NCBI RefSeq assembly: GCF_031432975.1
Contig: NZ_CP133838.1
Span: 4,154,001 to 4,218,000, forward strand
Origin: Buttiauxella selenatireducens
GTDB lineage: Bacteria > Pseudomonadota > Gammaproteobacteria > Enterobacterales > Enterobacteriaceae
Length of the DNA stretch: 64,000 nt
Direction of reading: 5' to 3'
A model generated the notes under the pieces. The model was given only the letters and a program-made list of their open reading frames with translations. It ran no database searches and had not been told where the DNA came from. Positions 1-20,597 of the stretch are shown piece after piece; the stretch's first letter is position 1; each line of letters begins with the position of its first letter. Position numbers and translations under genes: made by a program.

Positions 1-569
1 GTATAACCGGAAACTACAACATGCTTACCGTTTAAATCTTCAGCCTTGAGATCTGCCGCCAGGTAATTCACCTGAGAAACACCTGAAGCGCTGATAACAG
101 AACTGTTAAACGCAAACAGACCTTCTGCATTCAATTCCTTATGCATTGATTTTGCTTTAGCCGGAGCCTTTAATTTGGATAAGCAATCATCCGGTGCAAA
201 GAAGAAGCTCTGCGCTTTCATATCTGAATCAAAGAGTACTTTATACTGGCATGTCAGCACGGAATTATCAGGCTGTGTGAAGTGGAAGATATAATCCCAC
301 TCTTTTACACGGAATACACCTTCATCAAAATGTGGTGTGCCAATTAATTCATACACTTCAGCTTTAGTCATGCCTGGACGCATTTGTTTTAAGTTGTCCA
401 GATTAACGAAACTGCCTTCATCGCGTACTGCGTGAGACGCTTCTGGGAATACTGGGCTGTCCGTTTTACCCTGTGAATCAACATTACTGACTGAACGAGT
501 ACAAGCTGATAGTAATAACAGGCCGCCTACAACCATAACAAGGCGAGCAGGTTTTAATTTAATAATCAT
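1..569 (-). CDS. TpgA-like outer membrane lipoprotein (BamE-like + OmpA-like), partial
   Basis: I translated this from the ATG at 569; the frame stays open to the window edge, so the C-terminus is missing. A basic start and hydrophobic stretch lead to a lipobox ending in Cys23 (LLLLSAC). Residues about 60-110 contain a RPGMTKAEVYELIGTPH motif typical of SmpA/OmlA (BamE-like) domains. From about residue 143 the sequence (LFAFNSSVIS...) looks like the start of an OmpA-like peptidoglycan-binding domain. This two-domain plan matches TpgA, the partner of the Acinetobacter trimeric autotransporter Ata, which helps hold the adhesin at the outer membrane. The gene follows the trimeric autotransporter by 91 bp on the same strand, which supports that role. 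Function is inferred from architecture and context. Confidence 0.8.
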   Translation of the reverse strand, partial: MIIKLKPARLVMVVGGLLLLSACTRSVSNVDSQGKTDSPVFPEASHAVRDEGSFVNLDNLKQMRPGMTKAEVYELIGTPHFDEGVFRVKEWDYIFHFTQPDNSVLTCQYKVLFDSDMKAQSFFFAPDDCLSKLKAPAKAKSMHKELNAEGLFAFNSSVISASGVSQVNYLAADLKAEDLNGKHVVVSGY

Positions 570-600
570 TGTATTTATCTCTTAAAAATTGGGTTAACAG

Positions 601-621
601 GCCTCCGGAATCCCCGGAGGC
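601..621. terminator. Hairpin between adhesin and lipoprotein genes
   Basis: GCCTCCGG (601-608) pairs with CCGGAGGC (614-621) across a 5-base loop. There is no T run immediately after it on the minus strand, so it looks more like an attenuator or an mRNA-stabilising hairpin between adhesin and lipoprotein genes than a full terminator. Confidence 0.5.
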
Positions 622-660
622 ATATTTAATATTTAAACTAAATCAGGTTTAACTAAGCGG

Positions 661-3600
661 TTACCACTGGTAGCCAACACCGACTGCTCCACCCAGGTCA
701 CCCTGTGTGTTCGTGGAGCCAGAAAGTTTCGTTACCCATTTCCCGTTATCGGAAATGACAGATACGCCCAATGCGACGGCAGACTGATCCTGGTAGGTGG
801 AACCCGCCATTGCGACCATGCTTGCACCTGGCTGGTAAGCCTGCGGCAGACCGGCCATCGCCATCGCCCCTGCAATACCCGCGCTCAGTTTGTCATCCTG
901 ATCGTCAACCATATTTTTCAGAGAGTTAAACTTGTTGTCGGTGTACTGGTTCGCGCTGCTGATACCACTCTTCAGCTGATTCACGTTCACAGCATCAGTA
1001 CCTTGAGTACCGGCCGCGACGTTAGTCACCTGACGTTCCCCACCGGCATAACCCATAGAGACGCTGTTATCGCGGTCGGTTACAGAGTTATTACCCAGTG
1101 CAACAGAATTATTATGTTTTGCACGAGAGTTAGCCCCGATAGCGGTGCTGTTATCACCACTAGCAACGGCGCCCGCACCACCCGCAGTTGAATCCTTACC
1201 GGTTGGTTTTGGTTTCGGATTATTGCTGGTGTTGTTCACCTGGAACATACCGTCCGTACCGTTGGCAATATTGGTTACATTGTTTTCAACGTTTTTCAGC
1301 TGCGAGTAGTTAACCGCATCAGAATCTTCAACCCCATCAGCCAGATTGGAAATGGTGGTTGGGCCTCCAGCCAGCGTAATGTGATTATGATTAACCGTAC
1401 CATCCGAATTGCGGTCATATTTCACCGCCCCTTCATCAATGGTTTCGATTGTAGTATTGATATTTTCAATAGCCGTATTAGTTGCATACAGTTGGGAACC
1501 GTTGACTGCATCGGTGCTGCTTGCCGTCACTCTGCCTGCAGCCACATTAGTGATGGTGCGCTCCTGACCGACATCACCCACACTCACGGTACCTACAGGT
1601 GCTTTACCCGCTACAGCATAAGTTTTGCCATCGATCGTCATACTGGTGGTTGCCACAGTAGCGGATGTTTTAGATCCATTACCCAAAGCAACGCTGTTAG
1701 CGTCAGATGCAACGGCATCTTTACCAATCGCGATTGCATTTGTTGCGCTTGCCAGAGAATTCTGACCTACCGCAATACTGCCTGCACCTGTAGAAGTTGC
1801 CTTATAACCCACGGCCGTACTTCCCTGACCCTGAGCATAAGCATCAGCCTCACCAAGCACACCTTCGTTGGTACGAACATAACGAATACCTGCACCATTA
1901 ATGGTGGTGTAATTGTTAGTCGTATCACCCGCAATTTTAAACAACTGGCTTCCGTTGATAGCATCCGTACTGCTCGCATTCACCGCTCCCTGAGCCAGGT
2001 TGGTGATTTTCGTTCCGCCGGTTATACCGCCATCGCTGGAAACAGCACCTGACAGAGTGGCTTTGCTGTAATCCACTTCACCCGGGTCAAGCTGACCGTT
2101 ACCGTTGATGTCGTTCCAGTCATACTTCAGAGCACGTTCGCTGACGTCAACTGCAGTAGTGGATACCTTCTTCAACTGGGCTACTGTCACAGCATCGTCA
2201 TCCATAGCACCATCAGATACACCGGTAATACGACGGCCACCGACGTTCACTTCCCCTGTTGCTGTCGTGCCTGTCAGGTAGGCAGCATTCGCCAGTGTAG
2301 AACCGTTAGCTTGAGAACCTGCACCCAGCGCCACGCTGTTATTCGCTGTTGCTACGGCATTGTTACCCAAAGCCAGGCTGTTTACGCCTTTAGACTGAGC
2401 GTTGTAACCCACCGCGGTGCTGCCCTTGCCAGTTGCAAAAGCATCTAATTCATCAAGGCCCGCTTCGTTGGTACGAACATAACGAATACCTGCACCATTA
2501 ATGGTGGTGTAATTGTTAGTCGTATCACCCGCAATTTTAAACAACTGGCTGCCGTTGATGGCATCAGTACTGGTATTAGAAACTTCACCCTGAGCCAGAT
2601 TGGTGATTTTCGTCCCGCCGGTTATACCGCCATCGTTGGAAACAGTGCCTGACAGAGTTGCTTTACTGTAATTGACTTCACCCAGGTCAATCTGGCCGTC
2701 ACCATTGAGGTCGTTCCAGTCATATTTTACTGTACGTTCATTCAGTATATCCCCTTGGTCCTCAATCCCTTTTGTGATGGCATATAGTTGGGAACCGTTG
2801 ACAGCATCAGTACTGGTGAAACTCAGGCTACCTGCAGCCACATTAGTAATAAGGCGCTCATTACCTTTGCTGCCCACGCTGACCTGGCTGGTCGGATTGG
2901 CACCTGCAAATGGAATAAACACATCATCAATTGCGTAGCCACCACCGGAACCTGTAGTGGGACCAGTTACAGAACCTGCACCCAGCGCAATATCACCAGA
3001 GTAGTTAGCGATAGCACCATTACCCATAGCAACAGAGTTGTCTGCACGAGCAATCGCCTGAGGCCCAACGGCAATGCTGTCTACGCCAATGGCCTGAGCA
3101 TCCGCCTCCTCTGACCTGGCTTTGAAGTACTTAGTGCTACTTTTCAGTTGCGAAACGTTCACCGCATCGCTGTCGTCTTCACCAGCTAACACATTGGTGA
3201 TTTTTTTGCTGCCGGCATCAATGCCGGACACCAGAACTTTCGGGCCACCGGTGAGGGTCAGACCGCTATTGTTCAGCAGGCTGTTACCAATCGTCACGCT
3301 ACCTGCGTTAGTCAGGTCCAGGTTTTTGTTGAGTGCCACATTCAGCGTGCCCGCATCATCTGCACCACCGGCGGCAACGGTCACATTACTGTCGCCCGTA
3401 AAGGTCACTTTGCCGTTTGGACCGATGTTGGCTTTGGTACCAGAACTGTCAGCCACGTTCCAGCCAGCATCGGCCAGTTCTGCCACACCTTTCAGTTGTG
3501 CAACGTTCACTGCATCGCTATCCACTGTGCCTGCAGCCACGCCATTGATTTGGCGGAATTTACCGCTAGCGGCATCACCGACGCTTACTGCACCCAGCGT

Positions 3601-5775
3601 ACTGGTGGTTGCCGAAATAGCAGCCAGTTGCGCAGCACTGGTGCCAACAGGCATATAGCCCGCGATACCCTCTGCTGTGTTGGCCACGGAATAGCTACCA
3701 AGCGCGACGGAATCCGCACCTGTTGCAGAAGCACTAATACCTGCAGCCAGTGCCTTACTTCCCGTAGCGCCATCATTAAGGTAGTTAGCCCCACTTACGC
3801 CACCGTCATTCACGCTGTAGTAATGAGAGGCAGAGACCCCTCTAAGCTGGGAAACGTTCACCGCATCTGTGTCAGCAACACCCGCTGCCACATTGGTGAT
3901 TTGTTTAGTGCCAGCATCGATACCGGATACCAGAACTTTCGGGCCATTGGCGAGGGTCAGACCGTTATCGTTCAGCAGGCTGTTACCAATCGTCAGGCTA
4001 CCTGCGCTAGTCAGGTCCAGATTTTTGTTGAGTGCCACATTCAGCGTACCCGCATCATCTGCACCACCGGCAGCAACGGTCACATTGCTGTCACCCGTAA
4101 AGGTCACTTTGCCGTTCGGGCCAATGTTGGCTTTGGTACCAGAACTGTCAGCCACGTTCCAGCCAGCATCGGCCAGTTCTGCCACACCTTTCAGTTGTGC
4201 AACGTTCACTGCATCGCTATCCACTGTGCCTGCAGCCACGCCATTGATTTGGCGGAATTTACCGCTAGCGGCATCGCCGACGCTTACTGCACCCAGCGTA
4301 CTGGTGGTTGCCGAAATAGCAGCCAGTTGCGCAGCACTGGTGCCAACAGGCATATAGCCCGCGATACCCTCTGCTGTGTTGGCCACGGAATAGCTACCAA
4401 GCGCGACGGAATCCGCACCTGTTGCAGAAGCACTAATACCTGCAGCCAGTGCCTTACTTCCCGTAGCGCCATCATTAAGGTAGTTAGCCCCACTTACGCC
4501 ACCGTCATTCACGCTGTAGTAATGAGAGGCAGAGACCCCTCTAAGCTGGGAAACGTTCACCGCATCTGTGTCAGCAACACCCGCTGCCACATTGGTGATT
4601 TGTTTAGTGCCAGCATCGATACCGGATACCAGAACTTTCGGGCCACCGGTGAGGGTCAGACCGCTATTGTTCAGCAGGCTGTTACCAATCGTCACGCTAC
4701 CTGCGTTAGTCAGGTCCAGGTTTTTGTTGAGTGCCACATTCAGCGTACCCGCATCATCTGCACCACCCGCGGCAACGGTCACATTGCTGTCGCCGGTGAA
4801 GGTCACTTTGCCGTTTGGACCGATGTTGGCTTTGGTACCAGAACTGTCAGCCACGTTCCAGCCAGCATCAGCCAATTCTGCAACGCCTTTCAGTTGTGCA
4901 ACGTTGACCCCATCACTGTCTGCTGTACCTGCAGCTACGCTGGTGATCTGGCGGCTGCCAATATCGACAGCTGCACGAGAAGCTGTCGTAGCATTAATAG
5001 CCGCCAAAGATGCAGCAGAGATGCCAGCGGGCAGGTAGCCAGCAGAACCCGCCGCACGCGTGGCATTTGACTGATAACCAAGTGCAACACCACCGGCAAC
5101 ATTTGCTTGTGCAGAGTCACCGAGGGCAAGGGACGCGGTGCCATTAGCTATTGCTGCAGAACCAAGTGCGGTGCTTCCTACTCCTGTTGCGGATGAGCCG
5201 GGACCCACTGCAACAGCAGCTCGAGAATAAGCACCTGAAACGGTACCGAGAGCGATTGCATCTTGTCCAGTAGACAAAGATGCTAGTCCAATGGCTGTGG
5301 AAGCAGTACCAGTGGACTTGGCATAGTTACCGATAGCCATCGCACTACTTGAAATACCACCACCAGTCGAAGCAATAGCGTAATTACCTAGTGCGATACC
5401 TGCCGTATCACTCGAAGCATTTTCACCAAGAGCAATGTTAGACACATTATCAGTTCCTGTTGTAGTAACTGCTGCACTATTCCCACGCGGCGGTGTACCC
5501 CAGGTGTTAGTAATTTTCCCTACATTACCCGTGGTCGCTCCCATACCAATTGCCACAGATTCAGTATCAGATGTGTTAATTCCACCACCCGCCACATAAG
5601 CCCGGGCATCTTCCATAGACACCATAGACAATGCCACTGCACCAACCATACCTGCTGCCGTTGATGCAAGACGACGCGGACTGGTTTTACCTTTCCCTTT
5701 TGCCGCAGCAAATTCACCTGCAACAACCCAGGCGCGTTGCGCCGAATTCCATACCAGACGATAAATCTTGTTCAT
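661..5775 (-). CDS. Trimeric autotransporter adhesin (YadA-like)
   Basis: This 1704-aa type Vc secreted adhesin would be displayed as a trimer on the outer membrane. The N-terminus (MNKIYRLVWNSAQRAWVVAGE) is a classic extended signal peptide region, with cleavage likely after the ARA near residue 59. The body holds many YadA head motifs (SVALG, AIGxxA types), neck motifs (DAVNVSQL, STDAVNGSQLY) and stalk segments. The last 90 or so residues form the YadA anchor, from the coiled coil (KFNSLKNMVDDQDDKLSAGI) to the barrel end (GAVGVGYQW). An AAGGAAT ribosome site precedes the ATG. It lies 36 bp after an exported helical-repeat protein and 91 bp before a TpgA-like lipoprotein, so the three probably form one operon. 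Ligand unknown. Residues about 295-820 carry long near-identical internal repeats. Confidence 0.95.
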   Translation of the reverse strand: MNKIYRLVWNSAQRAWVVAGEFAAAKGKGKTSPRRLASTAAGMVGAVALSMVSMEDARAYVAGGGINTSDTESVAIGMGATTGNVGKITNTWGTPPRGNSAAVTTTGTDNVSNIALGENASSDTAGIALGNYAIASTGGGISSSAMAIGNYAKSTGTASTAIGLASLSTGQDAIALGTVSGAYSRAAVAVGPGSSATGVGSTALGSAAIANGTASLALGDSAQANVAGGVALGYQSNATRAAGSAGYLPAGISAASLAAINATTASRAAVDIGSRQITSVAAGTADSDGVNVAQLKGVAELADAGWNVADSSGTKANIGPNGKVTFTGDSNVTVAAGGADDAGTLNVALNKNLDLTNAGSVTIGNSLLNNSGLTLTGGPKVLVSGIDAGTKQITNVAAGVADTDAVNVSQLRGVSASHYYSVNDGGVSGANYLNDGATGSKALAAGISASATGADSVALGSYSVANTAEGIAGYMPVGTSAAQLAAISATTSTLGAVSVGDAASGKFRQINGVAAGTVDSDAVNVAQLKGVAELADAGWNVADSSGTKANIGPNGKVTFTGDSNVTVAAGGADDAGTLNVALNKNLDLTSAGSLTIGNSLLNDNGLTLANGPKVLVSGIDAGTKQITNVAAGVADTDAVNVSQLRGVSASHYYSVNDGGVSGANYLNDGATGSKALAAGISASATGADSVALGSYSVANTAEGIAGYMPVGTSAAQLAAISATTSTLGAVSVGDAASGKFRQINGVAAGTVDSDAVNVAQLKGVAELADAGWNVADSSGTKANIGPNGKVTFTGDSNVTVAAGGADDAGTLNVALNKNLDLTNAGSVTIGNSLLNNSGLTLTGGPKVLVSGIDAGSKKITNVLAGEDDSDAVNVSQLKSSTKYFKARSEEADAQAIGVDSIAVGPQAIARADNSVAMGNGAIANYSGDIALGAGSVTGPTTGSGGGYAIDDVFIPFAGANPTSQVSVGSKGNERLITNVAAGSLSFTSTDAVNGSQLYAITKGIEDQGDILNERTVKYDWNDLNGDGQIDLGEVNYSKATLSGTVSNDGGITGGTKITNLAQGEVSNTSTDAINGSQLFKIAGDTTNNYTTINGAGIRYVRTNEAGLDELDAFATGKGSTAVGYNAQSKGVNSLALGNNAVATANNSVALGAGSQANGSTLANAAYLTGTTATGEVNVGGRRITGVSDGAMDDDAVTVAQLKKVSTTAVDVSERALKYDWNDINGNGQLDPGEVDYSKATLSGAVSSDGGITGGTKITNLAQGAVNASSTDAINGSQLFKIAGDTTNNYTTINGAGIRYVRTNEGVLGEADAYAQGQGSTAVGYKATSTGAGSIAVGQNSLASATNAIAIGKDAVASDANSVALGNGSKTSATVATTSMTIDGKTYAVAGKAPVGTVSVGDVGQERTITNVAAGRVTASSTDAVNGSQLYATNTAIENINTTIETIDEGAVKYDRNSDGTVNHNHITLAGGPTTISNLADGVEDSDAVNYSQLKNVENNVTNIANGTDGMFQVNNTSNNPKPKPTGKDSTAGGAGAVASGDNSTAIGANSRAKHNNSVALGNNSVTDRDNSVSMGYAGGERQVTNVAAGTQGTDAVNVNQLKSGISSANQYTDNKFNSLKNMVDDQDDKLSAGIAGAMAMAGLPQAYQPGASMVAMAGSTYQDQSAVALGVSVISDNGKWVTKLSGSTNTQGDLGGAVGVGYQW
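3200..4890 (-). repeat. 699-bp in-frame tandem repeats within the adhesin gene
   Basis: Two consecutive copies of a 699-bp (233-codon) unit lie at about 3200-3898 and 3899-4597, followed by a partial third copy to about 4890. Much of copies 1 and 2 is almost base-for-base identical, for example around 3541-3860 versus 4240-4559. Near 3236-3300, copies 1 and 3 share variants that copy 2 lacks, a mosaic typical of recombination between repeats. Boundaries are approximate. Confidence 0.85.
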
Positions 5776-5811
5776 TACATATTCCTTCCCGGCTCCATGC
5801 CGGAATAAAAG

Positions 5812-6609
5812 TTAGTGTTTAGCGGCCTGCAGGGTTGCTGCGGCTTTGTTAATCAAAGGTGTTTCCAGAGAGGTACTGTTCAAGTGGTTCTGCTCGCGCT
5901 CATAAAGTTGCAGCGCGGCTTTGTTATCGTGTGTAACGAACTGCAGATAACCGCCGGTAAAGAAAGTGGCCTCAGTAAGTGCATCACGACGTTGTAATTC
6001 GTCCGTACCGGGCATGGCGGCAATCGCGGCGAATACCGCATCGGTGCTGCCTTTACCTGCATACAGGCGGATAAGCGCCTGCTGGCCCGGAGAACTGACG
6101 TTCATACCGGAGGCCAGAATGGCGAGTTCTTTTTTAAGGGCGGCAGATTTACCGACATGAGTACGAGCGGTAAGCCACAGTTGCCACAAACGGGCATAAT
6201 CACTTTCGCGGGTGTTACTGCTTGCAGTCAGTGCGTCAAAGGCAGTGCTAGCAGCATCAAACTTACCCAATGCAGCCAGGTTAATTGCGGACGGCACGGC
6301 AGATTGCGCAGCCATGTCTGTGTTCTTCAGGACATCCCAGGCTTTACGGGCCGCGCTGTTGCGACCAGCCAGGTCATCAGCGACGGCTTGCTGGAACAAG
6401 GCCACACGCGCTTCCTTGGTTTGTGGAACGCTCAGTGACTCTGAAACCTTTGAATTAGTGGTATCAGTGCTGGCCATTACCGGCTGTAAAACTGTATTTG
6501 TAGCCAGAATAAAAACGGAACCAAAAATAACTGAACGAGCGATCGCAGAAATCGACGTAATTAGCTCTGTTTGTTTTCCAAAATCAGATAACCAAAATGA
6601 ATTTTTCAT
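5812..6609 (-). CDS. Exported helical-repeat (TPR-like) protein upstream of the adhesin
   Basis: This 265-aa protein has an unusually long N-terminal export region: about 25 residues before a hydrophobic core (VIFGSVFILATNTVL), with a likely cleavage after PVMA near residue 46. The mature part is rich in Ala, Leu and helix-forming stretches with spacing like TPR/SEL repeats (NLAALGKFDAASTAFDALTA, for instance), so a periplasmic scaffold is plausible. I do not recognise a named family. It ends 36 bp before the trimeric adhesin on the same strand and is probably the first gene of that operon. A role in secretion, folding or control of the adhesin is inference from position only. The ribosome site is weak. 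Confidence 0.75.
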   Translation of the reverse strand: MKNSFWLSDFGKQTELITSISAIARSVIFGSVFILATNTVLQPVMASTDTTNSKVSESLSVPQTKEARVALFQQAVADDLAGRNSAARKAWDVLKNTDMAAQSAVPSAINLAALGKFDAASTAFDALTASSNTRESDYARLWQLWLTARTHVGKSAALKKELAILASGMNVSSPGQQALIRLYAGKGSTDAVFAAIAAMPGTDELQRRDALTEATFFTGGYLQFVTHDNKAALQLYEREQNHLNSTSLETPLINKAAATLQAAKH

Positions 6610-6866: not shown

Positions 6867-7295
6867 CTATTTAAACTCCCTGGTGTGGAGCCCGAAACTG
6901 TAATGATACTCACTGGCTTTGTAGTAAAGAGGCATGACTTCGTCATAAGTTATTATGTAGCCCTGGCCTTTTGTGTTTTTTATAAAATCAGCAGGCAACC
7001 CCAGTAAATTAAGTTTTGCACTCAGGCCATTTAACACTTGCCATAAACGTTGGGTGGAAGACGTTAGATTGTTATCCTCCCATATTTTTTTTAGCAATTC
7101 GTCTTTAGTCACCATCTTTGTTCGTGCGTTAATCAGAAGATAAAGAAAAAGATGCATCATTGTGTCATTAATGTTGGTGGCACAAAAAGCGACGTTCTTT
7201 TCATTACCTGTTAAAGAAACTCGGTAAAGTCTCTTGTTTTCGATATCGAAATGAATATCTTTACCAATAAGGTAGCCGTATAGCTTAAGTCCCAT
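6867..7295 (-). CDS. Winged-helix regulator (OmpR/ToxR-type DNA-binding domain, no membrane segment)
   Basis: This 142-aa protein carries one winged-helix domain of the OmpR/CadC type: a strand-rich start, then NARTKMVTKDELLKKIWEDN and a recognition-helix region (STQRLWQVLNGLSAKL), ending with the wing GQGYIITYDE. No transmembrane or receiver domain is visible, unlike full CadC or OmpR proteins. GAGGAG just before the ATG supports the start. It lies upstream of the adhesin operon on the same strand with a 257-bp gap, and divergent from the membrane regulator at 8072. Control of the adhesin is likely but inferred. Composition is AT-rich, unlike the core genes. Confidence 0.75.
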   Translation of the reverse strand: MGLKLYGYLIGKDIHFDIENKRLYRVSLTGNEKNVAFCATNINDTMMHLFLYLLINARTKMVTKDELLKKIWEDNNLTSSTQRLWQVLNGLSAKLNLLGLPADFIKNTKGQGYIITYDEVMPLYYKASEYHYSFGLHTREFK

Positions 7296-8071: not shown

Positions 8072-8899
8072 ATGATGAAAGCTTTTATTATCAATCACAG
8101 TGTCCGCTTTGATCCCCGCTCCCGGACGCTGGCTCCCCTTGAAAAACCGGAAAATAAGGTTCAACTGCATACCCCTGTGAGCGAATGTCTACTGTTATTA
8201 CTGACTCATAATGGTGAAACGCTGAGCCACAGTTATCTTTCTGAAGAGGTGTGGGTTAAAAAAGGGAGTTATGTCACGCCGAATTCGCTGTATCAGAATA
8301 TCGCGGCTATCCGTCGGGGACTGAAAGCTGTGGGCTTGAGTGAGGAGATGCTAAAAACCGTCCCGAAGATGGGATTTCAGATTTATGCTTCACTACAAGA
8401 GGAAGAGCTGCTTCCTGCTGAATCAGAGGGGAGGACAAATGATGTGTTAAAAGGAGAGAATGGAACCGAAGAAAATCATGAACCAGAACCGCACGATGAA
8501 ATTATCTCTGAGCCGACGATAGAAAAATCAAACACCGGTTTTTTCGGCGCTCAGGTTAATGCCTTTTATTTGGCATTGGCAATCCTCTTCACTTTTGGTT
8601 GCGTACATTTTTATATTCAACTAGGGTCTATCAATGACCCATATTCATCCTATAGCCACATAGGCATGATAAATAATTGTGATGTTTATTCCTCTTATGT
8701 GGGAAAGGAAGAAAGCTCTCGAGTCTTTAATTCGTTCTTGATACGTAGTGCGTTGAGTTGCCAACTGGGTAGCAAAGCGTATCTGACATTTAATCTTAAT
8801 CACCGGCTATCATCCCTGGTACTATGTGACCAGTCTATAAATAATAAGAACTCTTACTGCCGCTCATTCATTTATGTGGATAATAAAAATGATGACTAG
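8072..8899 (+). CDS. CadC/MarT-like membrane-bound transcription regulator
   Basis: This 275-aa ToxR-family regulator binds DNA from the inner membrane. Residues 1-108 form a winged-helix domain (PVSECLLLLLTHNGETLSH, then TPNSLYQNIAAIRRGLK and the wing KMGFQIYAS). A charged acidic linker follows (about 109-158), then one transmembrane helix at about 163-185 and a short periplasmic tail with several Cys. This is the plan of Salmonella MarT, which activates the autotransporter gene misL. The next gene overlaps it by about 10 bp and looks like FidL, MarT's usual partner. ATG codons at 8072 and 8075 are both possible. Likely target: the neighbouring adhesin or another surface gene (inference). 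Confidence 0.8.
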   Translation: MMKAFIINHSVRFDPRSRTLAPLEKPENKVQLHTPVSECLLLLLTHNGETLSHSYLSEEVWVKKGSYVTPNSLYQNIAAIRRGLKAVGLSEEMLKTVPKMGFQIYASLQEEELLPAESEGRTNDVLKGENGTEENHEPEPHDEIISEPTIEKSNTGFFGAQVNAFYLALAILFTFGCVHFYIQLGSINDPYSSYSHIGMINNCDVYSSYVGKEESSRVFNSFLIRSALSCQLGSKAYLTFNLNHRLSSLVLCDQSINNKNSYCRSFIYVDNKNDD

Positions 8900-9359
8900 A
8901 GAAAAAAAATATAAATTAATACTTATTACTATTATCTCTTTGCTTCCATTGCTGTTCGGGGAGTATATCAGATATCAACGCTCACATGTATCATGTGACA
9001 GTGAATTGATTCTTAACAGCGCTAAAGGTGAGGTTGTTCGAGTAATAATGACATATCGGTTCGGGAGCAGTGAAGGTAGCTATAACGCAACCGGAACTTA
9101 TTTTCACGAAGGAAAAACTATCGAGATAAATGATGATTTTTTATTTAACTATTATTTGAAATCAGACCATTTAATATTGATATCCCGTGAGGATAAAAGT
9201 AAACCAAGTGAACTGGAGGAAGCCAACTCAATTTCCCCAGATTTTTTTAACTACAGTGGCCGAGGAATAATTATGCGATTGAGCAAAGAGAATAGTGCCG
9301 GCTATTTATTTAGTATAGATAATACACCCATATTTTATTGTAAACGCAACAAAGCATAA
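8889..9359 (+). CDS. FidL-like inner membrane protein
   Basis: About 156 aa, with a basic start and a single N-terminal transmembrane helix (KLILITIISLLPLLFGEYI); the remainder would be periplasmic. The start overlaps the end of the MarT-like regulator gene (stop at 8897-8899); ATG codons at 8889 and 8892 are both possible, and translational coupling is likely. Gene order and size fit FidL-like proteins that accompany ToxR-family regulators such as Salmonella MarT. Two Cys flank the periplasmic part (near VSCDSEL and at the end, IFYCKRN). The biochemical role of FidL proteins is not established; modulation of the regulator is inference. Confidence 0.65.
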   Translation: MMTREKKYKLILITIISLLPLLFGEYIRYQRSHVSCDSELILNSAKGEVVRVIMTYRFGSSEGSYNATGTYFHEGKTIEINDDFLFNYYLKSDHLILISREDKSKPSELEEANSISPDFFNYSGRGIIMRLSKENSAGYLFSIDNTPIFYCKRNKA

Positions 9360-12406: not shown

Positions 12407-15400
12407 TCAGAAGTTGTATTTCACGCGGATCATCCCTTCCTGTGACTGATAGCCCTGCTGGTTACTGCCCGTGTAGCTAAAGGAAGTACTGAGATGTGGC
12501 GTGAATTTAACCTCCACACCCGCTTCATACTCAATGATGTCACGCCCTAAAGTATCACTCTGAACGGCAAACAACGTGCCGTCGTTACTGGCGACGATAC
12601 TGTCGTTGTTGTTCATCAACTCACGGCGATAGGTCACTTTCAGCGCTGGCGTCACTTGCGTGTTACCGAATGTCAGGTCATGGGAAATCTTCACTCCAAC
12701 ATTCGGCTGTACGCTGTCGTAGCGGTCTGAGTCGCCATGTACTTTCATTTTGTTGATGAATGTTCCAAACAACTCACCCTCCGACGACATATGTTCGTCG
12801 TAGCCAGAATAAAACACATTCAGACTATCAATCCCGACCTGCGGCACGATAGTGGTATTGCCCATCTGTATCGCCCAGTTGGCACTTAACCCCGCGGAAA
12901 GCGCGTTGCCAGTGATATCGCTTTCCCCTTCGCCCAGTTTCAGGCCATTGCTGGTGACGTCGCGCTTCACCTCGTTGGCTGAGTGGATGTAACCCAGCGC
13001 GCCGGTCAACACCATGCTGTCCAGTTTTTGTGAGGCAAAAAGATTTACCGCGTAACGATCGGCGCTTGCAGAAGAGCCCTGTGCCGAAAGGTCGAAATCG
13101 GAGTAATCAACCGACACACCAAAGCGCGTATTCCCCTGCTCCGTGTATCCACCAATAGAAATACCATCCACTTTGGCACTGCCATTGTCCGCCGTGTTGC
13201 CGTTACTCATGTGCGGCATAATCCACATCGCATCATCGTGGTAACAGGAGCCGGATAGATCGCAGATAGATTTCCCACCAGAAGACTTAGACCAGTCAAC
13301 CTGATCCATACTCCATTGCGTTGGTTTTTGCATGCCAAGAGACAAAAGCTGTAAATCGTAGGCACGCAAGTTGCTCGGCGTAACCACGAACGTTGGCTGC
13401 GGTGTCGGCGTTACCGGGTCTGTTGGGTCCACGATTGGGTCAACCACCGGATCTGTCGGGTCCACAATTGGGTCAATCACTGGGTCTGTCGGGTCCACAA
13501 TCGGGTCAACCACCGGATCTGTTGGGTCCACAATCGGGTCAATTACCGGGTCTGTCGGGTCTACAATGGGGTCAATTACCGGGTCTGTCGGGTCCACAAT
13601 TGGGTCAATTACCGGATCTGTTGGGTCTACAATCGGGTCAATGACCGGATCTGTTGGGTCTACAATCGGGTCAATGACCGGGTCTGTTGGGTCTACAATC
13701 GGGTCAATGACCGGGTCTGTCGGGTCCACAATCGGGTCAATTACCGGGTCTGTCGGGTCTACAATCGGGTCAATTACCGGATCGGTTGGGTCCACAATTG
13801 GGTCAACCGGATCAACACTTACCACTGATGTGGTTAACGATACGTCATTCGCCCTGTAACTAAGTTGCTGATCAAACCCTTCAGGAACTCCGTTTAATGA
13901 TGCGAATTCACCTTCGATCCCCCCCTGCGCCGTCAGGAAAACATACGACTGTGGAGTATAGGTCCCCGGCGCATAAATTGTCTGCAATCCGCCCGCAAGC
14001 GTTGCATGCCCCGTAATACCCAGTACCGAGGCGCCTTCAAGCGGGTCAATATCAATGAGCAGCCAGGCATCTGCGGTCTGGGCATAGTTACCGGATACAC
14101 GTAGGCTTTTCCCTGCCCCTGCCGGGCGAACGTGCCCGCTGTTAAGCAGATCGCCGCCAATCGAGCCATATCCCTGAAGCGTACCACCGGAACTCACCAG
14201 CACATCACTGGCAAGGGAAGCCCAGTCATGCTGCTCGTCGCCAATTTCAAGGATCCCCTCTTCGACCCGTGTTTCCTGATCGAACGTGTTTTCCTGATTG
14301 AGCGTCAGCCTGCCGTTGCCGCGTTTCACCATCTGGCCCGCACTTCCGCTTATCAGTGTATCCGGCGTCATATCATCATCGGCGGCAAAAATAAGCCGAC
14401 CCCCGTTGATGGCGATTTCTCCGGCAGGGGTGGATTGTGCCTGGCTGATGATCAGATCGCCCTGTGTCAGATCCAACAAGCTATCCCAGAGGCTGTTATC
14501 GCCGCTCAGGGTCAGCGCATGATTACCCTCTTTAATGATTTTGCTGTCGTTCTCGCTCCTCAGATTTGCGGCAAGTGTGGTGTCCTGTGTTGAAGCCAGC
14601 ACCAGTTGGCTGCTGTTTTTTACCCATAAATTGCCGGTAAAGGCTGAGGTATCACCAAAGAAGGATGCGCCCTGGCTGCCGGTAATGTTCAACGTGCCAC
14701 TACCCGAAATAGCGCCATACACATTCATTCCGGATTGTTCACCCAGCAACGTCCCCAGGGATGCGACGTCCAGCGTGCCGTTAATCTTCTGATCTAACGC
14801 TGCGCTGCCCGAAGTCAGAGTGCCACCATCAAGGATCACGCCATTGAGCAGATCGTAACCGTTCTGATCAAGCGTCGCCGTGCTCGCCACCGTCACCTTG
14901 TTTTCGCTATCGCCCAGCGCCTGGCTGTTGCCGAGAATGGTTTTCCCGCCGGACAACAGCGCATCACCGGTAAAGGTGTTGCTGCCCGCCAGCGTCAGGC
15001 TGCCGGTTCCCTGCTTATTGAGGTGGATTTTCTGGCCGGTGATAGTACTGTTCAGTGCTGTGTTCGTGGCGATCAGCAAATTCAGCGCCGACCAGTTATT
15101 GAGATCGGACGAAGTGATCGTTGAACCTGCCGCATTCGCTTTGATATTCAGCGTACCGCTGTGACCATGCAGATCGACGGTGGTGTCTTTTGCCAGATTG
15201 CTGAGACTGACGTTGCTGTCGCTGTCAAGCTTCAGCGTCCCGGTAGTCATGCGGATATCGCCGCCGGTTGCCGCTGCGGTGCTGCCCAGCGTCAGTGTCC
15301 CGCCCTGCATATCCAGTTCGTTGGTATAGAGATGGTTGTCGCCTGTCAGCGTCAGGTTTTTATCCCCGGTTTTGTATGCCTTTCCAGTTCCTTCCTGCGC

Positions 15401-18400
15401 CAGATTTGCCGCAAGCGTGGTGTCTTCAAGCGAAGAGAGATAAAGCTGACTGCCAGTTTTCAGCAACAGCTTGCCGGTAAAGGCAGAGATATCGCCAAAG
15501 AAATTCGCGCCCAGGGGTCCTGAGATATTCAGCGTGCCGCTGCCGGACAGTCCGCCATAAATATTCATGCCAGAAAATAACCCCAGCAGCGTTCCCGACG
15601 TTGCCACGTTCAACGTGCCGTTAACCTTCTGGTTCAGCGCAGTGCTGCTCGAGGTCAGGATGCCACCATCAAAGATCACACCATTAAGCAGATCGTAGCC
15701 GTTCTGATCGAGTATCGCCGAACTCGCCACCGTCACCTTATTCGCACTATCACCCAGCGCCTGGCTGTTGCCGAGAATCGTTTTCCCGCCAGACAACAGC
15801 GCATCACCGGTAAAGGTGTTGCTGCCCGCCAGCGTCAGGCTGCCGGTTCCCTGCTTGTTGAGGTGGATTTTCTGGCCAGTGATGGTGCTGTTCAGTGCCG
15901 TGTTCGTGGCAATCAGCAAATTAAGCGATGACCATTTATCGGTGTCAGACGAAGTGATCGTTGAACCGACCACGTTCGCTTTGATATTCAGCGTGCCACT
16001 GTGGCCATGCAGATCGACGGTACTACCCGCAGCCAGATTGCTGAAACTGACGTTGCTGTCGCTATCGAGTTTCAGCGTACCGGCGGTCATGCGGATATCG
16101 CCGCCGGTTGCCGCAGCGGTTCTGCCCAGTGTCAGCGTGCCAGCCTGCACATCCAGTTCGTTGGTGTAGAGATGGTTGTCGCCGGTCAGCGTCAGGTTTT
16201 TATCCCCGGTTTTGTAAGCCTTTCCAGTTCCTTCCTGCGCCAGATTTGCGGCAAGCGCGGTGTCTTCAACGGGCGTGAGATAAAGCCTGCTGCCATTTTT
16301 CAGTAACAAATTGCCGGTAAATGCAGAGGTATCGCCATAGAAGGATACCCCCTGGCCACCGGTAATATTCAGCGCACCGCTGCCGGATATCGCGCCGTAA
16401 AGCCCGAGGTTAATGCCAAAACCCCAGTTATTACCATTTAATGTTCCGCTGGTATCAACCAACAACGCGCTGCGTAACGTGGCACCCGCTCCGCCACCAT
16501 TACCATTCGTCCCGGAAGCAATGGTGCCCCCATCAAGCACCAGGGTTTTGGCCTGGCCTGTGGTCTGGATGACATCACGCAATTCAAGAACGGTATTTTG
16601 CCCAACGGTCAGCGAACCCTCGCCACTGAATAGGCTATGATTGCTCCCGCCCCAGCTAATTTTGCTGTTCTTAAAGACGATGTCGCCATCAGTCAGCGAA
16701 TCTTTCGCAAACTCGGTATTAATATTGTTCACGGTCAGGCGCTTGCCGTTGAGCTGGTATTTGCCAATCGTCGTCACATCTGTGGTGCCGCTGAACGTTG
16801 CCGTACTGTCATCATTTAGGTTAATTCCACCTAATGTTATTGCGCCTGAGCCACTGTTCATCAGAGAAGCTGAAGAAAGACTAACCATATTCGATACGCT
16901 GTGACCGTTCAGGTCGAGCATCGCGCCTCTTGCTACCGTCACGATATTTTCAGCCGCACCGAAAGCCTGATTGCTCCCCGCGAGGGTTTTGCCCTCGGAG
17001 AGCAGGACATCCCCGGTAAAGGTACTCATCCCGCCCAAGGCCAGAGTACCAGCACCTGTTTTTATCAGATGCATGTCTGCGCCTGAAATCAGGCTGTTAA
17101 GCACCGAACTCTCATCTATTTGTAGTTTTAGCGTTGAAGCATGGGTTTTATCAGAAGAGATAATTTTTGAATTGTGCGAGTTGGATTCTACATTCAGCGT
17201 CACACTGTGGCCGTTCAGGTCGATAACCCCACCGTCTTCCAAAACCACGTGCGAGTCTTTATCAATGGCGTTATCCACCCCCATTTTCAGGGTCATATCG
17301 CTTTTGCTGGAAACCGGGCTGCCACTGTTGTAGCCCCGAACCGTTACTTCACTATTTAAATCGTTGACCGTGTTTAGCGTGATAACACCACCGGCGTTAT
17401 CCTGGGCATCGACGGAAAGGTTATAACCACTAAGCAAAGCACTGTTGATGAACACATCGCCGCCGCCGGAGAAGTAATAACCTGTCTGTGTCGGTTTTAG
17501 CGTGTTAATCAGCGTCAGCGTTTCACCCGCCAGCGCCCCAATAGCCAGTTGCTGGAAGGCACTCATGTCATAGCCAAAACTGTCTGTCACTTTGAGATCT
17601 ATCATTCCCGAAGACTGCTCTGTGACGTTTTTAAAAACGTTAAAGCCAGCCACAGAACCATAATTCACATTCAGACGGCCATTACCCAGCGAGTTTTCGT
17701 AATCGGTGATCAAATTAATCCCACGTCGGAGCTCGATATCTCCGACCCAGTTTTCATTCATACTCGCGATATGTACTGTACCCGCACTCTGCCCATTCCC
17801 CAGGAACAGTGAAGAACCGCTCGACGGGAGGTAGCCGTTAATTTTGACCTCGCCGTCACCGCCGCCCAGATAAAGATCCTTTGCTCCGTAGGTTAAATTC
17901 TGACCGGAAATCCCCAACTCAAGCAGGCTACTACTCCCCAGATATAGATCTTTGGTCAGCAGGGCCATCATATCTGCCGAGGTGATGGCCCCGGTCAGCG
18001 CCAATACGCCACGAGAATCGTCAGAGATTTTCTCCAGAATAGAAGCAAAACTGTTCGCGTTGTTCCCTACATCTAGTACGCCAGCCTCAGCAATATTCCA
18101 GCCGTTAGATTGCATACCAAGGCTTGCCAGTGTTTCCGTGATTACCCGGCCAGATGAGATGAAATTGGTGCCAGTCAGAGTATTGATGCCGGTCAAATAA
18201 AGCGTTCCCAGCCCCTCTTTAATGATATGGCCCGCCCCGCTTAGCGTTGCGTCAATTTGAATGCGGAATGCCTCTTCCGGTGTCACCTTCAGAACAGAAT
18301 GAATCCCTGAAAGATTGACGCTACCATCAAGATACGCCCCTTCATTGATACCTTGCTGGCTGCTGCTGACCTCACCGCCGGAAGTCATCACCAAAGACGA

Positions 18401-20275
18401 AGCATCGTCCAGCTCGAAGCGCCCACGCGCCATCGCATTGCGACCCACGGTAAACTGGCTGCCGGTTAAATTCACCAGACTGTCGCCGAGATTAAAAGAG
18501 GCGGTATCGTACTGCGTGGGGTCGATATAGCCCCCGGCATGTAGCGTATACGCACCCTGTATAGCCAGATTACCGTTGAGAATGTCCATTCCAGCGCGGG
18601 TATTCACATTGCCTTTTAGCGTCCATGACGAACCTGCCGTGCCCGGCGCATACACCAGATGCAGCAAGCCTTTATCTGCCGAACCGCCGTCAAAGAAGTT
18701 ACCAAGATAGGTTTTCGGGCCGCTGCCGGTGAAGGTAAATGTGGATAATGCGTTGGCTTTAGAGGTGCCAATCGTTGCGCCATTATCCATATGGATAATA
18801 TCGTTCCAGCTTAGAGACTGGCCGTAAAGATCGAGCACACCCCCGTTCACACCAAACCCGACCTGAGTCCCATCAAGCTGGCCCGCCGCACCCAGACGAA
18901 CAATCGCTCTGCCACTGGTAATATGTATTGCATCAGCCGCATGACCGCCAATCCGTTGCAGAATAGTCAGGCCATCGCCGACATACAGACTGGAATGATT
19001 GACATTATTACCCGAAATAACCAGTGTCCCGAGGCCGATTTTGCGCCAGATATCACCCGCGCTGCCGGTCAGGTTGCTGATAACCGTCGCACCCAGATTA
19101 ATAATGTAGCCCGCCGTGTTCATACGCCGGGTACTATCGCCACCATCCGAGAGAATATAATTAGAATTAAAGGTAAGTGAACCCGCACCCATGTCGAGAT
19201 TTTGAGCCGTGAGTTCAAGTGTCCCACCGGCCCCACCCAGAATCAGGTTTTTATTGCTCATAAAATCTGTACTGGCTCGCGCGGAGGCGGCAATATCAGT
19301 ACGAATACCGTGATAGCGGATAGAATTACCGTTGAGATTGAAATCCCCCTCTCCGGTATAAATATCCTGAGCGCCGACATAAATAATATCGGAAGATTTT
19401 GATGTCGCTATAAGCGAATCATTGAAATCATTGATTTTTACCTGTGTCCAATCTGGGGCTGTTCTTAGAAAAGTCCATTTATTATACCCCGCACCGGAAC
19501 CCGCTGAGTTAACACCTAAAAACTTCCAACTTTGAGATTTTACATCCCATCCCCACATACCACTTCCGCTATCACCACTTAACGTACCAACATCAAGCGC
19601 CGTTATTTGGTTGACAGGGAGGAGGAAAGACAAATTATAAACCCCATCATAATAACTTTGCCCATTGATGATATTAAATCCACCGGCCAATGGGCCATAG
19701 CCAATGTAAGTTGCCTCTCCAACATCTGTTGCTATAGCAAGATACCCCCCTCCGGTACGAGCAATAAGAAGCCCTGCTTTAAATTGGCTGGTATCAGTAA
19801 AGAGCTCTGCGGGAGCCGCATCGGTCACAATGGTACGCTCGCGGGTAATTTTGTAGTCACTCCCGGCGTCCAATTCATAAGCGCTTTTTGTCACTTCATT
19901 CATCAGGGCATAGCTGCTCTCATTTTCCGCACCGCTAAATAAAGTGCCGTCTAATTGCTGGTAACGCTTTCCAAATGAAATATTGTCGTTGTATGGAACA
20001 TGCGTTGCTGTCGCAGTGACCTGAGAGTTAATTAACGTTGAAAAACCACCATCAACGCTGGCACTAAAATCAGGCATCACATTAATGATTCCACTCAAAG
20101 AACCATCAGTATGATAAACAGGTATATTCGTCGCGCCCGCAGAAAAAGCACCCCGGTTTTCACCAAAATCACGATACACCTGAACGTCGATATCATCACG
20201 CATTAACGCAGCGGCGGCTGGATCTATTTGCCCAGCAAATATTAGTGAAGCGAGTAGTTTCTTTTTAAATTTCAT
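12407..20275 (-). CDS. Giant S6-family serine protease autotransporter
   Basis: A type Va autotransporter of about 2622 aa, roughly twice the size of typical SPATEs. I chose the ATG at 20275 because it begins a standard signal peptide (MKFKKKLLASLIFAG..., cleavage after AAA near residue 23); the frame extends upstream without coding signs. The S6 protease domain follows, with the likely triad His92 (TATHVPYNDNISFG), Asp140 (GSDYKITRERT) and Ser236 (GDSGSGMW). A very long beta-helix passenger, rich in GSGTLNI and TLxLxGxN repeats, includes 280-aa duplications. Next comes a 12-copy DP-rich repeat hinge, and a C-terminal 12-strand barrel ends in MIRVKYNF. It sits between proY and malZ, genes adjacent in E. 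coli, so it was inserted there or lost from relatives. Protease substrate unknown. Confidence 0.93.
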   Translation of the reverse strand: MKFKKKLLASLIFAGQIDPAAAALMRDDIDVQVYRDFGENRGAFSAGATNIPVYHTDGSLSGIINVMPDFSASVDGGFSTLINSQVTATATHVPYNDNISFGKRYQQLDGTLFSGAENESSYALMNEVTKSAYELDAGSDYKITRERTIVTDAAPAELFTDTSQFKAGLLIARTGGGYLAIATDVGEATYIGYGPLAGGFNIINGQSYYDGVYNLSFLLPVNQITALDVGTLSGDSGSGMWGWDVKSQSWKFLGVNSAGSGAGYNKWTFLRTAPDWTQVKINDFNDSLIATSKSSDIIYVGAQDIYTGEGDFNLNGNSIRYHGIRTDIAASARASTDFMSNKNLILGGAGGTLELTAQNLDMGAGSLTFNSNYILSDGGDSTRRMNTAGYIINLGATVISNLTGSAGDIWRKIGLGTLVISGNNVNHSSLYVGDGLTILQRIGGHAADAIHITSGRAIVRLGAAGQLDGTQVGFGVNGGVLDLYGQSLSWNDIIHMDNGATIGTSKANALSTFTFTGSGPKTYLGNFFDGGSADKGLLHLVYAPGTAGSSWTLKGNVNTRAGMDILNGNLAIQGAYTLHAGGYIDPTQYDTASFNLGDSLVNLTGSQFTVGRNAMARGRFELDDASSLVMTSGGEVSSSQQGINEGAYLDGSVNLSGIHSVLKVTPEEAFRIQIDATLSGAGHIIKEGLGTLYLTGINTLTGTNFISSGRVITETLASLGMQSNGWNIAEAGVLDVGNNANSFASILEKISDDSRGVLALTGAITSADMMALLTKDLYLGSSSLLELGISGQNLTYGAKDLYLGGGDGEVKINGYLPSSGSSLFLGNGQSAGTVHIASMNENWVGDIELRRGINLITDYENSLGNGRLNVNYGSVAGFNVFKNVTEQSSGMIDLKVTDSFGYDMSAFQQLAIGALAGETLTLINTLKPTQTGYYFSGGGDVFINSALLSGYNLSVDAQDNAGGVITLNTVNDLNSEVTVRGYNSGSPVSSKSDMTLKMGVDNAIDKDSHVVLEDGGVIDLNGHSVTLNVESNSHNSKIISSDKTHASTLKLQIDESSVLNSLISGADMHLIKTGAGTLALGGMSTFTGDVLLSEGKTLAGSNQAFGAAENIVTVARGAMLDLNGHSVSNMVSLSSASLMNSGSGAITLGGINLNDDSTATFSGTTDVTTIGKYQLNGKRLTVNNINTEFAKDSLTDGDIVFKNSKISWGGSNHSLFSGEGSLTVGQNTVLELRDVIQTTGQAKTLVLDGGTIASGTNGNGGGAGATLRSALLVDTSGTLNGNNWGFGINLGLYGAISGSGALNITGGQGVSFYGDTSAFTGNLLLKNGSRLYLTPVEDTALAANLAQEGTGKAYKTGDKNLTLTGDNHLYTNELDVQAGTLTLGRTAAATGGDIRMTAGTLKLDSDSNVSFSNLAAGSTVDLHGHSGTLNIKANVVGSTITSSDTDKWSSLNLLIATNTALNSTITGQKIHLNKQGTGSLTLAGSNTFTGDALLSGGKTILGNSQALGDSANKVTVASSAILDQNGYDLLNGVIFDGGILTSSSTALNQKVNGTLNVATSGTLLGLFSGMNIYGGLSGSGTLNISGPLGANFFGDISAFTGKLLLKTGSQLYLSSLEDTTLAANLAQEGTGKAYKTGDKNLTLTGDNHLYTNELDMQGGTLTLGSTAAATGGDIRMTTGTLKLDSDSNVSLSNLAKDTTVDLHGHSGTLNIKANAAGSTITSSDLNNWSALNLLIATNTALNSTITGQKIHLNKQGTGSLTLAGSNTFTGDALLSGGKTILGNSQALGDSENKVTVASTATLDQNGYDLLNGVILDGGTLTSGSAALDQKINGTLDVASLGTLLGEQSGMNVYGAISGSGTLNITGSQGASFFGDTSAFTGNLWVKNSSQLVLASTQDTTLAANLRSENDSKIIKEGNHALTLSGDNSLWDSLLDLTQGDLIISQAQSTPAGEIAINGGRLIFAADDDMTPDTLISGSAGQMVKRGNGRLTLNQENTFDQETRVEEGILEIGDEQHDWASLASDVLVSSGGTLQGYGSIGGDLLNSGHVRPAGAGKSLRVSGNYAQTADAWLLIDIDPLEGASVLGITGHATLAGGLQTIYAPGTYTPQSYVFLTAQGGIEGEFASLNGVPEGFDQQLSYRANDVSLTTSVVSVDPVDPIVDPTDPVIDPIVDPTDPVIDPIVDPTDPVIDPIVDPTDPVIDPIVDPTDPVIDPIVDPTDPVIDPIVDPTDPVIDPIVDPTDPVIDPIVDPTDPVVDPIVDPTDPVIDPIVDPTDPVVDPIVDPTDPVTPTPQPTFVVTPSNLRAYDLQLLSLGMQKPTQWSMDQVDWSKSSGGKSICDLSGSCYHDDAMWIMPHMSNGNTADNGSAKVDGISIGGYTEQGNTRFGVSVDYSDFDLSAQGSSASADRYAVNLFASQKLDSMVLTGALGYIHSANEVKRDVTSNGLKLGEGESDITGNALSAGLSANWAIQMGNTTIVPQVGIDSLNVFYSGYDEHMSSEGELFGTFINKMKVHGDSDRYDSVQPNVGVKISHDLTFGNTQVTPALKVTYRRELMNNNDSIVASNDGTLFAVQSDTLGRDIIEYEAGVEVKFTPHLSTSFSYTGSNQQGYQSQEGMIRVKYNF
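13412..13810 (-). repeat. 33-bp tandem repeats coding an Asp-Pro-rich hinge
   Basis: About 12 copies of a 33-bp unit encode DPIVDPTDPVI, with only Ile/Val variation at the last position. Third-position variants (GGATCT/GGGTCT, TCCACAAT/TCTACAAT) differ between copies. The array joins the passenger to the beta barrel of the S6 autotransporter. Since 33 is a multiple of three, copy-number change would keep the frame. Confidence 0.93.
14640..16320 (-). repeat. 840-bp duplicated blocks in the autotransporter passenger
   Basis: Two consecutive blocks with an 840-bp (280-codon) offset are strongly similar at DNA level. Examples are 14931 onward versus 15771 onward, and 15361 onward versus 16201 onward. 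They encode the repeated AYKTGDKNLTLTGDNHLYTN and QKIHLNKQGTGSLTLAGSNT segments. Ends are approximate, and weaker copies may extend on both sides. Confidence 0.8.
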
Positions 20276-20597
20276 TCGTTTTATCCTTAAACGAAGACAA
20301 TATCCGACCAATAATACTAAGGGGAACAGAGTATGAGGGGGTGGGTGTCTTAATAAATCAATAAAAAATAATACTACAAAGCAGCATTGATGCATTGCTA
20401 TAAATTTCAAAAAACCAATTCATATACATATATTGCATTTAAAAACATATTAATTATTGATAACAATGAAAATTAGCAAATCGAATTAATTAAGTTAGTA
20501 ACTTTAATTAATAACACATATAAAAAAGGCCCAAACAAATAGAAATCTGTTCAGGCCCTAATGATTGCCATAAATAAATGGCATACAACTTTTATAA
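20276..20597 (-). promoter_or_regulatory. Intergenic region: proY terminator and autotransporter promoter
   Basis: No gene is visible in these 322 bp. The end near proY holds a terminator at 20522-20558. The rest, up to the autotransporter start at 20275, is AT-rich and should contain its promoter; I could not single out a box with confidence. Confidence 0.5.
20522..20558 (-). terminator. proY terminator
   Basis: On the minus strand, GGCCTGAACA pairs with TGTTTGGGCC (two G-T wobbles), followed directly by TTTTTT. It lies about 40 bp after the proY stop codon. Confidence 0.8.

Follow-up and report, generated by a model that had tools for sequence, protein, structure and literature searches.

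HP and G4, two uncatalogued protein families encoded with a trimeric autotransporter adhesin and its TpgA-like lipoprotein in Buttiauxella selenatireducens

Two helpers specific to trimeric autotransporter adhesins (TAAs) are named in the literature, SadB (excerpts of PMC3953254) and TpgA (excerpts of PMC8151025). TpgA of Acinetobacter interacts with the TAA and with peptidoglycan, and display of the adhesin is lower without TpgA, according to the excerpted text of PMC8151025; excerpts of PMC13082670 give PDB entry 9VNJ as the AtaA-TpgA structure. SadB is described in the excerpts of PMC3953254 as an inner-membrane lipoprotein that is encoded just upstream of SadA and raises SadA display. The locus analyzed here resembles both systems and differs from both. 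As with Ata/AtaA and TpgA, the TAA gene is followed by a gene for a lipoprotein (LIP) with BamE-like and OmpA-like parts, but the locus also encodes two further exported proteins, which we call HP and G4, and dedicated regulators, none of which is mentioned in the excerpts of PMC8151025 and PMC13082670. As in the SadB-SadA arrangement of Salmonella and E. coli, an exported candidate helper is encoded directly upstream of the TAA, at 36 nt compared with the 44 bp given in the excerpts of PMC3953254, although HP differs from SadB in being helical and lacking cysteine.

The window, the whole stretch of 64,000 nucleotides that was analyzed, covers positions 4154001-4218000 of a single-contig 5.2-Mb genome. 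The operon crosses the edge of the window into a neighbouring 19 kb (L006), and its features are the following, with positions in the window unless L006 is named.

Positions 6867 to 7295, minus strand: small winged-helix (wHTH) regulator of 142 aa, the first gene before HP (Trans_reg_C, 4.8e-07).
Positions 5812 to 6609, minus strand: HP, an exported TPR-like helical protein of 265 aa with no cysteine (ORF, AlphaFold2 helices, weak TPR and NlpI matches).
Positions 661 to 5775, minus strand: TAA, a YadA-type trimeric autotransporter adhesin of 1704 aa (Pfam domains).
Positions 3 to 569, minus strand: LIP, a TpgA-like lipoprotein, the first 189 of its 264 aa (BamE and OmpA domains, TpgA model, 9VNJ).
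L006 8775-9569, past the window edge: the complete LIP gene, read from the neighbouring 19 kb.
L006 7878-8765, outside the window: G4, an exported protein of 295 aa, the next gene after LIP.
L006 7211-7780, outside the window: LuxR-type gene that follows G4.
Positions 8072 to 8899, plus strand: ToxR-like membrane regulator of 275 aa, divergent from the operon (Trans_reg_C, 2.4e-10; hydrophobic segment from residue 164).
Positions 8874 to 9359, plus strand: small, partner-like membrane protein of 161 aa, overlapping the ToxR-like gene (hydrophobic segment from residue 14).

A sequence-only reading of the window had proposed an adhesin operon of three same-strand genes with short gaps. The three ORFs are indeed present, all on the minus strand, with 36 nt between HP and TAA and 91 nt between TAA and LIP, but they are part of a larger operon with the order wHTH regulator-HP-TAA-LIP-G4, and the fourth exported gene and the regulators on both sides had escaped that reading. 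G4 starts 9 nt past the LIP stop codon. In 10 intact loci, with start codons chosen by hand, the gaps range from 35 to 61 nt (HP-TAA), 20 to 91 nt (TAA-LIP), and -4 to 27 nt (LIP-G4). The TAA-LIP gap of the window operon also holds a G+C-rich hairpin of 8 pairs (L006 9601-9621), which might set the ratio of adhesin to lipoprotein. A promoter scan gave sites at chance level (20 found versus 21.4 in shuffles), and terminator-like sites numbered 19 versus 9.5 in shuffles.

The adhesin itself was correctly recognized from the sequence. All four Pfam models of a YadA-type trimeric autotransporter match the 1704-aa protein over their cut-offs: ESPR (3.4e-14), YadA_head (1.5e-49), YadA_stalk (4.3e-124), and YadA_anchor (4.9e-17). 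The full-length LIP has a BamE domain (1.4e-17) and, in the C-terminal end that lies beyond the window, an OmpA domain (5.6e-18), so that the two parts expected of the lipoprotein are both there, and a BamE-like N-domain with an OmpA-like C-domain beside a TAA is the TpgA-type plan. LIP aligns over its full length with the TpgA model NF047726 (5.9e-39, 133.9 bits), and the part from residue 35 to residue 131 is homologous to TpgA, chain B in 9VNJ (6.8e-12). Because 133.9 bits is far below the curated NCBI cut-off of 350, LIP is a relative of TpgA and not TpgA itself; the proposed TpgA-like plan holds in this narrower sense. By homology to TpgA, LIP is the presumptive anchor of the TAA and is predicted to bind both the barrel and peptidoglycan. 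Its BamE-like domain would clamp the finished barrel from the periplasmic side, and its OmpA-like domain would tie the barrel to peptidoglycan, as TpgA does for AtaA. LIP matches occur at 1e-20 in 40 of 392 genomes of the GTDB family. Twenty of them reach E<=1e-39, and all 20 adjoin a TAA anchor ORF; the remaining 20 comprise G074, with an N-terminal partial match beside a TAA, and matches of about 1e-21 to the OmpA-like half only. Two further loci, L115 (G327) and L124 (G045), carry a different TAA, a TpgA-like lipoprotein that is 33-35% identical to LIP, and a further small gene that looks like a lipoprotein gene, and neither G4 nor HP was found at these two loci.

HP is found next to adhesins. 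A protein search of the 392 family genomes returned 14 HP matches at 1e-3, and a 14-row HP profile applied to 43 selected genomes retained 13 of these, lost G022, and brought no new one. In all 13 genomes, the next gene after HP is a TAA gene. With Buttiauxella sp. B2 (L003) and an E. coli plasmid added, all 15 distinct loci have HP immediately upstream of a TAA; this count includes G003, in which HP and TAA are both broken, and four loci whose contig ends inside the TAA, which was recognized by match in G002, G060, and G133 and by eye from an ESPR-like start alone in G195 (L032). The tie between HP and the adhesin that the earlier reading assumed is thus borne out. LIP (E<=1e-39) and an operon-type G4 accompany HP in 12 of the 13 genomes, and both are missing in G133. 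Six genomes (G306, G177, G201, whose contig begins inside the TAA, G152, G084, and G337) carry TAA-LIP-G4 without HP, which makes HP an optional but faithful companion of the TAA. In those operons we found no convincing remnant of HP; a 1.65e-04 match in L110 falls within another gene. HP presence mapped on the LIP tree takes 5 changes, at least 2 of them forced by well-supported branches, and 57 of 500 shuffles were as clustered. The median TAA length is about 2005 aa with HP (10 complete) versus 1265 aa without HP (5 complete LIP-G4 operons), with overlapping ranges. Within the genus of the window, 4 of 6 sampled genomes have no match to HP or G4 at 1e-3 and none to LIP at 1e-20. The order sample held HP in 5 of 295 genomes, three from the same family and two weak (G591 and G625), and the class sample in 2 of 83, our own genome and one weak match (G696). 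We left the weak matches in G022, G591, G625, G696, and L005 uncounted; the one in G591 is a protein of 652 aa, and none of the ORFs in the 16-kb stretch that holds it is labelled as a TAA. A search with the HP DNA found the operon in 1 of 5,426 genomes; in E. coli, the wHTH-HP-TAA-LIP-G4 order recurs on the river-water plasmid NZ_CP147089.1 (L020). On this plasmid G4 is followed by a further gene, of 237 aa, without an assigned family.

The start codon of HP, an ATG at 6609, is the sole in-frame ATG, GTG, or TTG ahead of the hydrophobic core, and the unusually long signal region that had been pointed out is therefore real in this species. Its length is not conserved, however, since the signals of HP in L026, L027, and L032 are about 28-29 aa by eye. 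Because of this variation among relatives, we dropped the idea that the long signal is an ESPR-like feature. The predicted helical-repeat character of HP was upheld by an AlphaFold2 model built from 4 sequences, an alpha-helical array with 11 helices within residues 65-264 (mean pLDDT 70.7) that is well predicted from about residue 111 and poorly before about residue 110. Neither Pfam nor NCBIfam has a family over cut-off for HP. Weak Pfam TPR matches recur in the HP family (TPR_6 in 6 of 14 members and TPR_2 in 5 of 14, with every score shown below cut-off), and one relative weakly matches the model of BamD, which is also an exported TPR protein (0.0029, 17.1 bits against a model cut-off of 81.4); HP differs from BamD in not being a lipoprotein. 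In NCBIfam, the model that the HP family matches best is that of NlpI, PRK11189, with hits in 4 of 14 members (best 3.7e-05). When profiles were compared, HP and NlpI aligned over 155 columns (probability 76, 2.3e-05), with an NlpI profile of seven near-identical sequences that were identified by a PDB match at 2.5e-145; the same NlpI profile against YajI or G4 profiles gave probabilities of at most 25 over short stretches. HP thus looks like a distant TPR protein, closest among catalogued families to NlpI, a TPR lipoprotein of the envelope, although the likeness is weak and could be a general TPR likeness. HP also differs from NlpI in that it lacks a lipid cysteine and was met in TAA operons only.

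G4 is a more general companion of TAAs than HP. Its relatives occur in 35 of the 392 family genomes at 42 distinct loci, all of which were examined: 31 are next to a TAA, 10 are away from any TAA, and 1 is at a contig end (G290). Eighteen of the TAA-linked loci are operons with LIP, in which most G4 are plain exported proteins; in the window genome, G4 carries an LTSC that resembles a lipobox, a feature that most G4 in LIP operons lack. At the other 13, which have no LIP within the stretch covered, G4 is always lipoprotein-like by motif or by eye and lies downstream of the TAA, except in three genomes where it is upstream (G228, G356, and G328). The residue after the presumed lipid cysteine of these 13 proteins, assigned by eye in several, is Asp in 11 and Lys in two; two of the 11 come from one genus and are alike over the stretch compared. 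A lipoprotein with Asp in this position is retained in the inner membrane, the location of SadB, and the lipoprotein-type G4 are likewise predicted inner-membrane lipoproteins. The 10 paralogues not linked to a TAA have no signal peptide by eye, and 7 of them lie in the order nlpI, a gene that we take to be deaD-like, G4 paralogue. The existence of these TAA-free paralogues without signal peptides indicates that the basic activity of G4 is not specific to adhesins. At 250-264 aa, these paralogues (L135-L141, L118, L143, and L145) constitute an uncatalogued family without a visible signal peptide. The three G4 sets are homologous (hhalign, 1e-36 to 1e-60). G4 occurs in 5 of 295 genomes of the order sample, one of which is from another family (G416) and TAA-linked, and in 1 of 83 of the class sample, our own genome; three further plasmid records hold distant relatives with 20-21% identity.

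Searches with 22 G4 relatives gave no credible Pfam or NCBIfam match, only scattered hits with at most two members per family, and G4 profiles against PDB sequences returned nothing or two matches at chance level (0.55 and 1). The structure model of G4 is poor (mean pLDDT 40). We also considered HP and G4 as relatives of SadB. Against 10 sequences of the SadB paralogue YajI (DUF3251), HP and the three G4 groups aligned over 16-24 columns with a probability of at most 8.7, in G4 mostly at the signal, and we rejected the relationship as far as this YajI profile goes. The PDB search says little about SadB, since its YajI control found YajI (2jwy) but not the PDB entry of SadB.

NlpI is an adaptor for endopeptidases and for the Prc protease. 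With NlpI as its nearest entry, HP would seem to have a wall-related role, which counts against reading it as a chaperone; to our knowledge, NlpI is not known as a TAA chaperone. The main rival to the chaperone or scaffold module that we propose below makes HP an adaptor of the NlpI type. By recruiting peptidoglycan hydrolases or a periplasmic protease, and with G4 as its partner, HP would open the wall or control adhesin quality at the site of fibre assembly and anchoring. The NlpI match and profile alignment speak for such an adaptor, as does the position of 7 of the 10 TAA-free G4 paralogues one gene away from nlpI. HP and G4 distances are, moreover, the best-correlated pair in 10 loci (r 0.88, 0 of 5000 permutations as high, compared with 0.60 for HP-LIP, 0.51 for HP-anchor, and 0.55 for LIP-G4). 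This correlation could mean that HP and G4 act jointly, but it is confounded by shared locus history and is best read as a hint. Given how weak the likeness is, that it may reflect TPR proteins in general, that the NlpI profile is so narrow, and that HP has no counterpart to the lipid cysteine of NlpI, we judge an NlpI-type adaptor to be unlikely.

The distribution of the genes bears on two further explanations. LIP alone may serve the adhesin by anchoring it, as TpgA does, while HP and G4 would be envelope genes that travel with the operon; the dispensability of HP across related operons and the ten G4 relatives that are not linked to a TAA would fit this. Hitch-hiking would hardly keep 15 of 15 HP loci and 31 of 42 G4 loci next to a TAA in many genera, however, and we regard this explanation as distinctly unlikely. 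HP or G4 might instead be exported with the fibre and act outside the cell as a cap or co-adhesin, given that the start of HP is signal-like and that the protein lacks a second membrane anchor. We saw no feature for export across the outer membrane, the helical core of HP is conserved among its relatives, and its TpgA-like and lipoprotein neighbours favour the periplasm, all of which makes an outside role highly improbable.

A homologue of the wHTH gene lies upstream of HP in 10 of the 15 distinct HP loci. The gene at 8072 to 8899, which we take to be ToxR-like, and its small membrane partner occur together at 7 of the 15. ToxR/ToxS and PsaE/PsaF are regulator pairs of this type, and the pair in the window resembles them in combining a winged-HTH protein that has a membrane segment with a small membrane partner beside an adhesin operon; it differs in matching no curated family over cut-off apart from Trans_reg_C, and the 161-aa partner has no Pfam match. 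HP could also serve in the periplasm as a sensor or adaptor, signalling adhesin traffic to the ToxR-like regulator and thereby tuning expression. The pair beside 7 of the 15 HP loci would suit such a sensor, but it is not in the covered stretch of the other 8, including the E. coli plasmid and L002, and L107 has the pair without HP; we therefore consider a sensor very unlikely. The genomic site of the operon varies, and in E. coli it is carried on a plasmid. In the window it is near a presumably malZ-like gene and a peroxiredoxin gene, neither of which is present in the stretch from G165 (L021), of the same genus, where an integrase-like ORF was seen by eye. Beside the LuxR-type gene of the operon lies a crotonase-family gene related to RpfF (L006 6183-7103), which scores 178.6 bits against the model of this diffusible signal factor synthase (cut-off 550). 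It has a homologue in G264 (L025 14865-15734), and a link to cell-cell signalling is possible. The window also encodes a second giant surface protein near the operon, at 12407-20410 on the minus strand, a 2667-aa classical autotransporter with an S6 (IgA1-protease-like) peptidase domain and an autotransporter beta-domain.

On balance, we lean toward a model in which the locus is a dedicated module for TAA biogenesis and anchoring, with LIP as the anchor and with HP and G4 keeping the chains competent for export and delivering them to BAM. Their position, their export signal, and their linkage to the adhesin make HP and G4 the best candidates for a periplasmic chaperone or scaffold, and HP may be the helper of secretion or anchoring that the sequence-only reading suspected. 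The gene content, the domain homologies, the exclusive linkage of HP to TAAs, and the frequent linkage of G4 to TAAs are observed; we infer the periplasmic location, how the proteins divide the work, and whether HP or G4 touches the TAA. In this module, the wHTH protein, the divergent ToxR-like pair, and the LuxR-type regulator would control the HP-TAA-LIP-G4 operon, and the three TAA chains would cross the inner membrane by means of their extended signal peptide. HP would then act on the adhesin in the periplasm as a TPR-like scaffold, together with G4, a putative periplasmic protein that is a predicted inner-membrane lipoprotein in many relatives. The two would most likely keep the TAA chains export-competent and in register and pass them to BAM, and they may act either on the adhesin or on the wall around it.

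A TAA with dedicated helpers is a known kind of system; what is new is the presence of the HP and G4 families in the operon. Both families are absent from the catalogues searched, Pfam and NCBIfam. We found no publication describing HP or G4 in a literature search that stopped short of the 2026 preprint on trimeric autotransporters by Dorison et al. (doi 10.64898/2026.01.22.700529), which excerpts of PMC13082670 cite for auxiliary proteins. We tentatively suggest, at somewhat less than even confidence, that HP and G4 are two unrelated families of dedicated TAA factors. G4 would be the one widespread in enterobacteria, soluble where a TpgA-like anchor is present and an inner-membrane lipoprotein where it acts alone, with a signal-less paralogue beside nlpI, and HP would be an optional NlpI-like TPR subunit; the two may form a paired envelope unit that was recruited from the surroundings of nlpI and threads, checks, or seats the giant fibre on its way through the wall. 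A standing problem is how three long TAA chains are kept unfolded and in register and get through the wall to BAM; HP and G4, being genetically tied to the TAA, offer direct gene targets for it. If the paired HP-G4 unit is real, type Vc secretion here would be the work of a multi-protein system and not autotransport.
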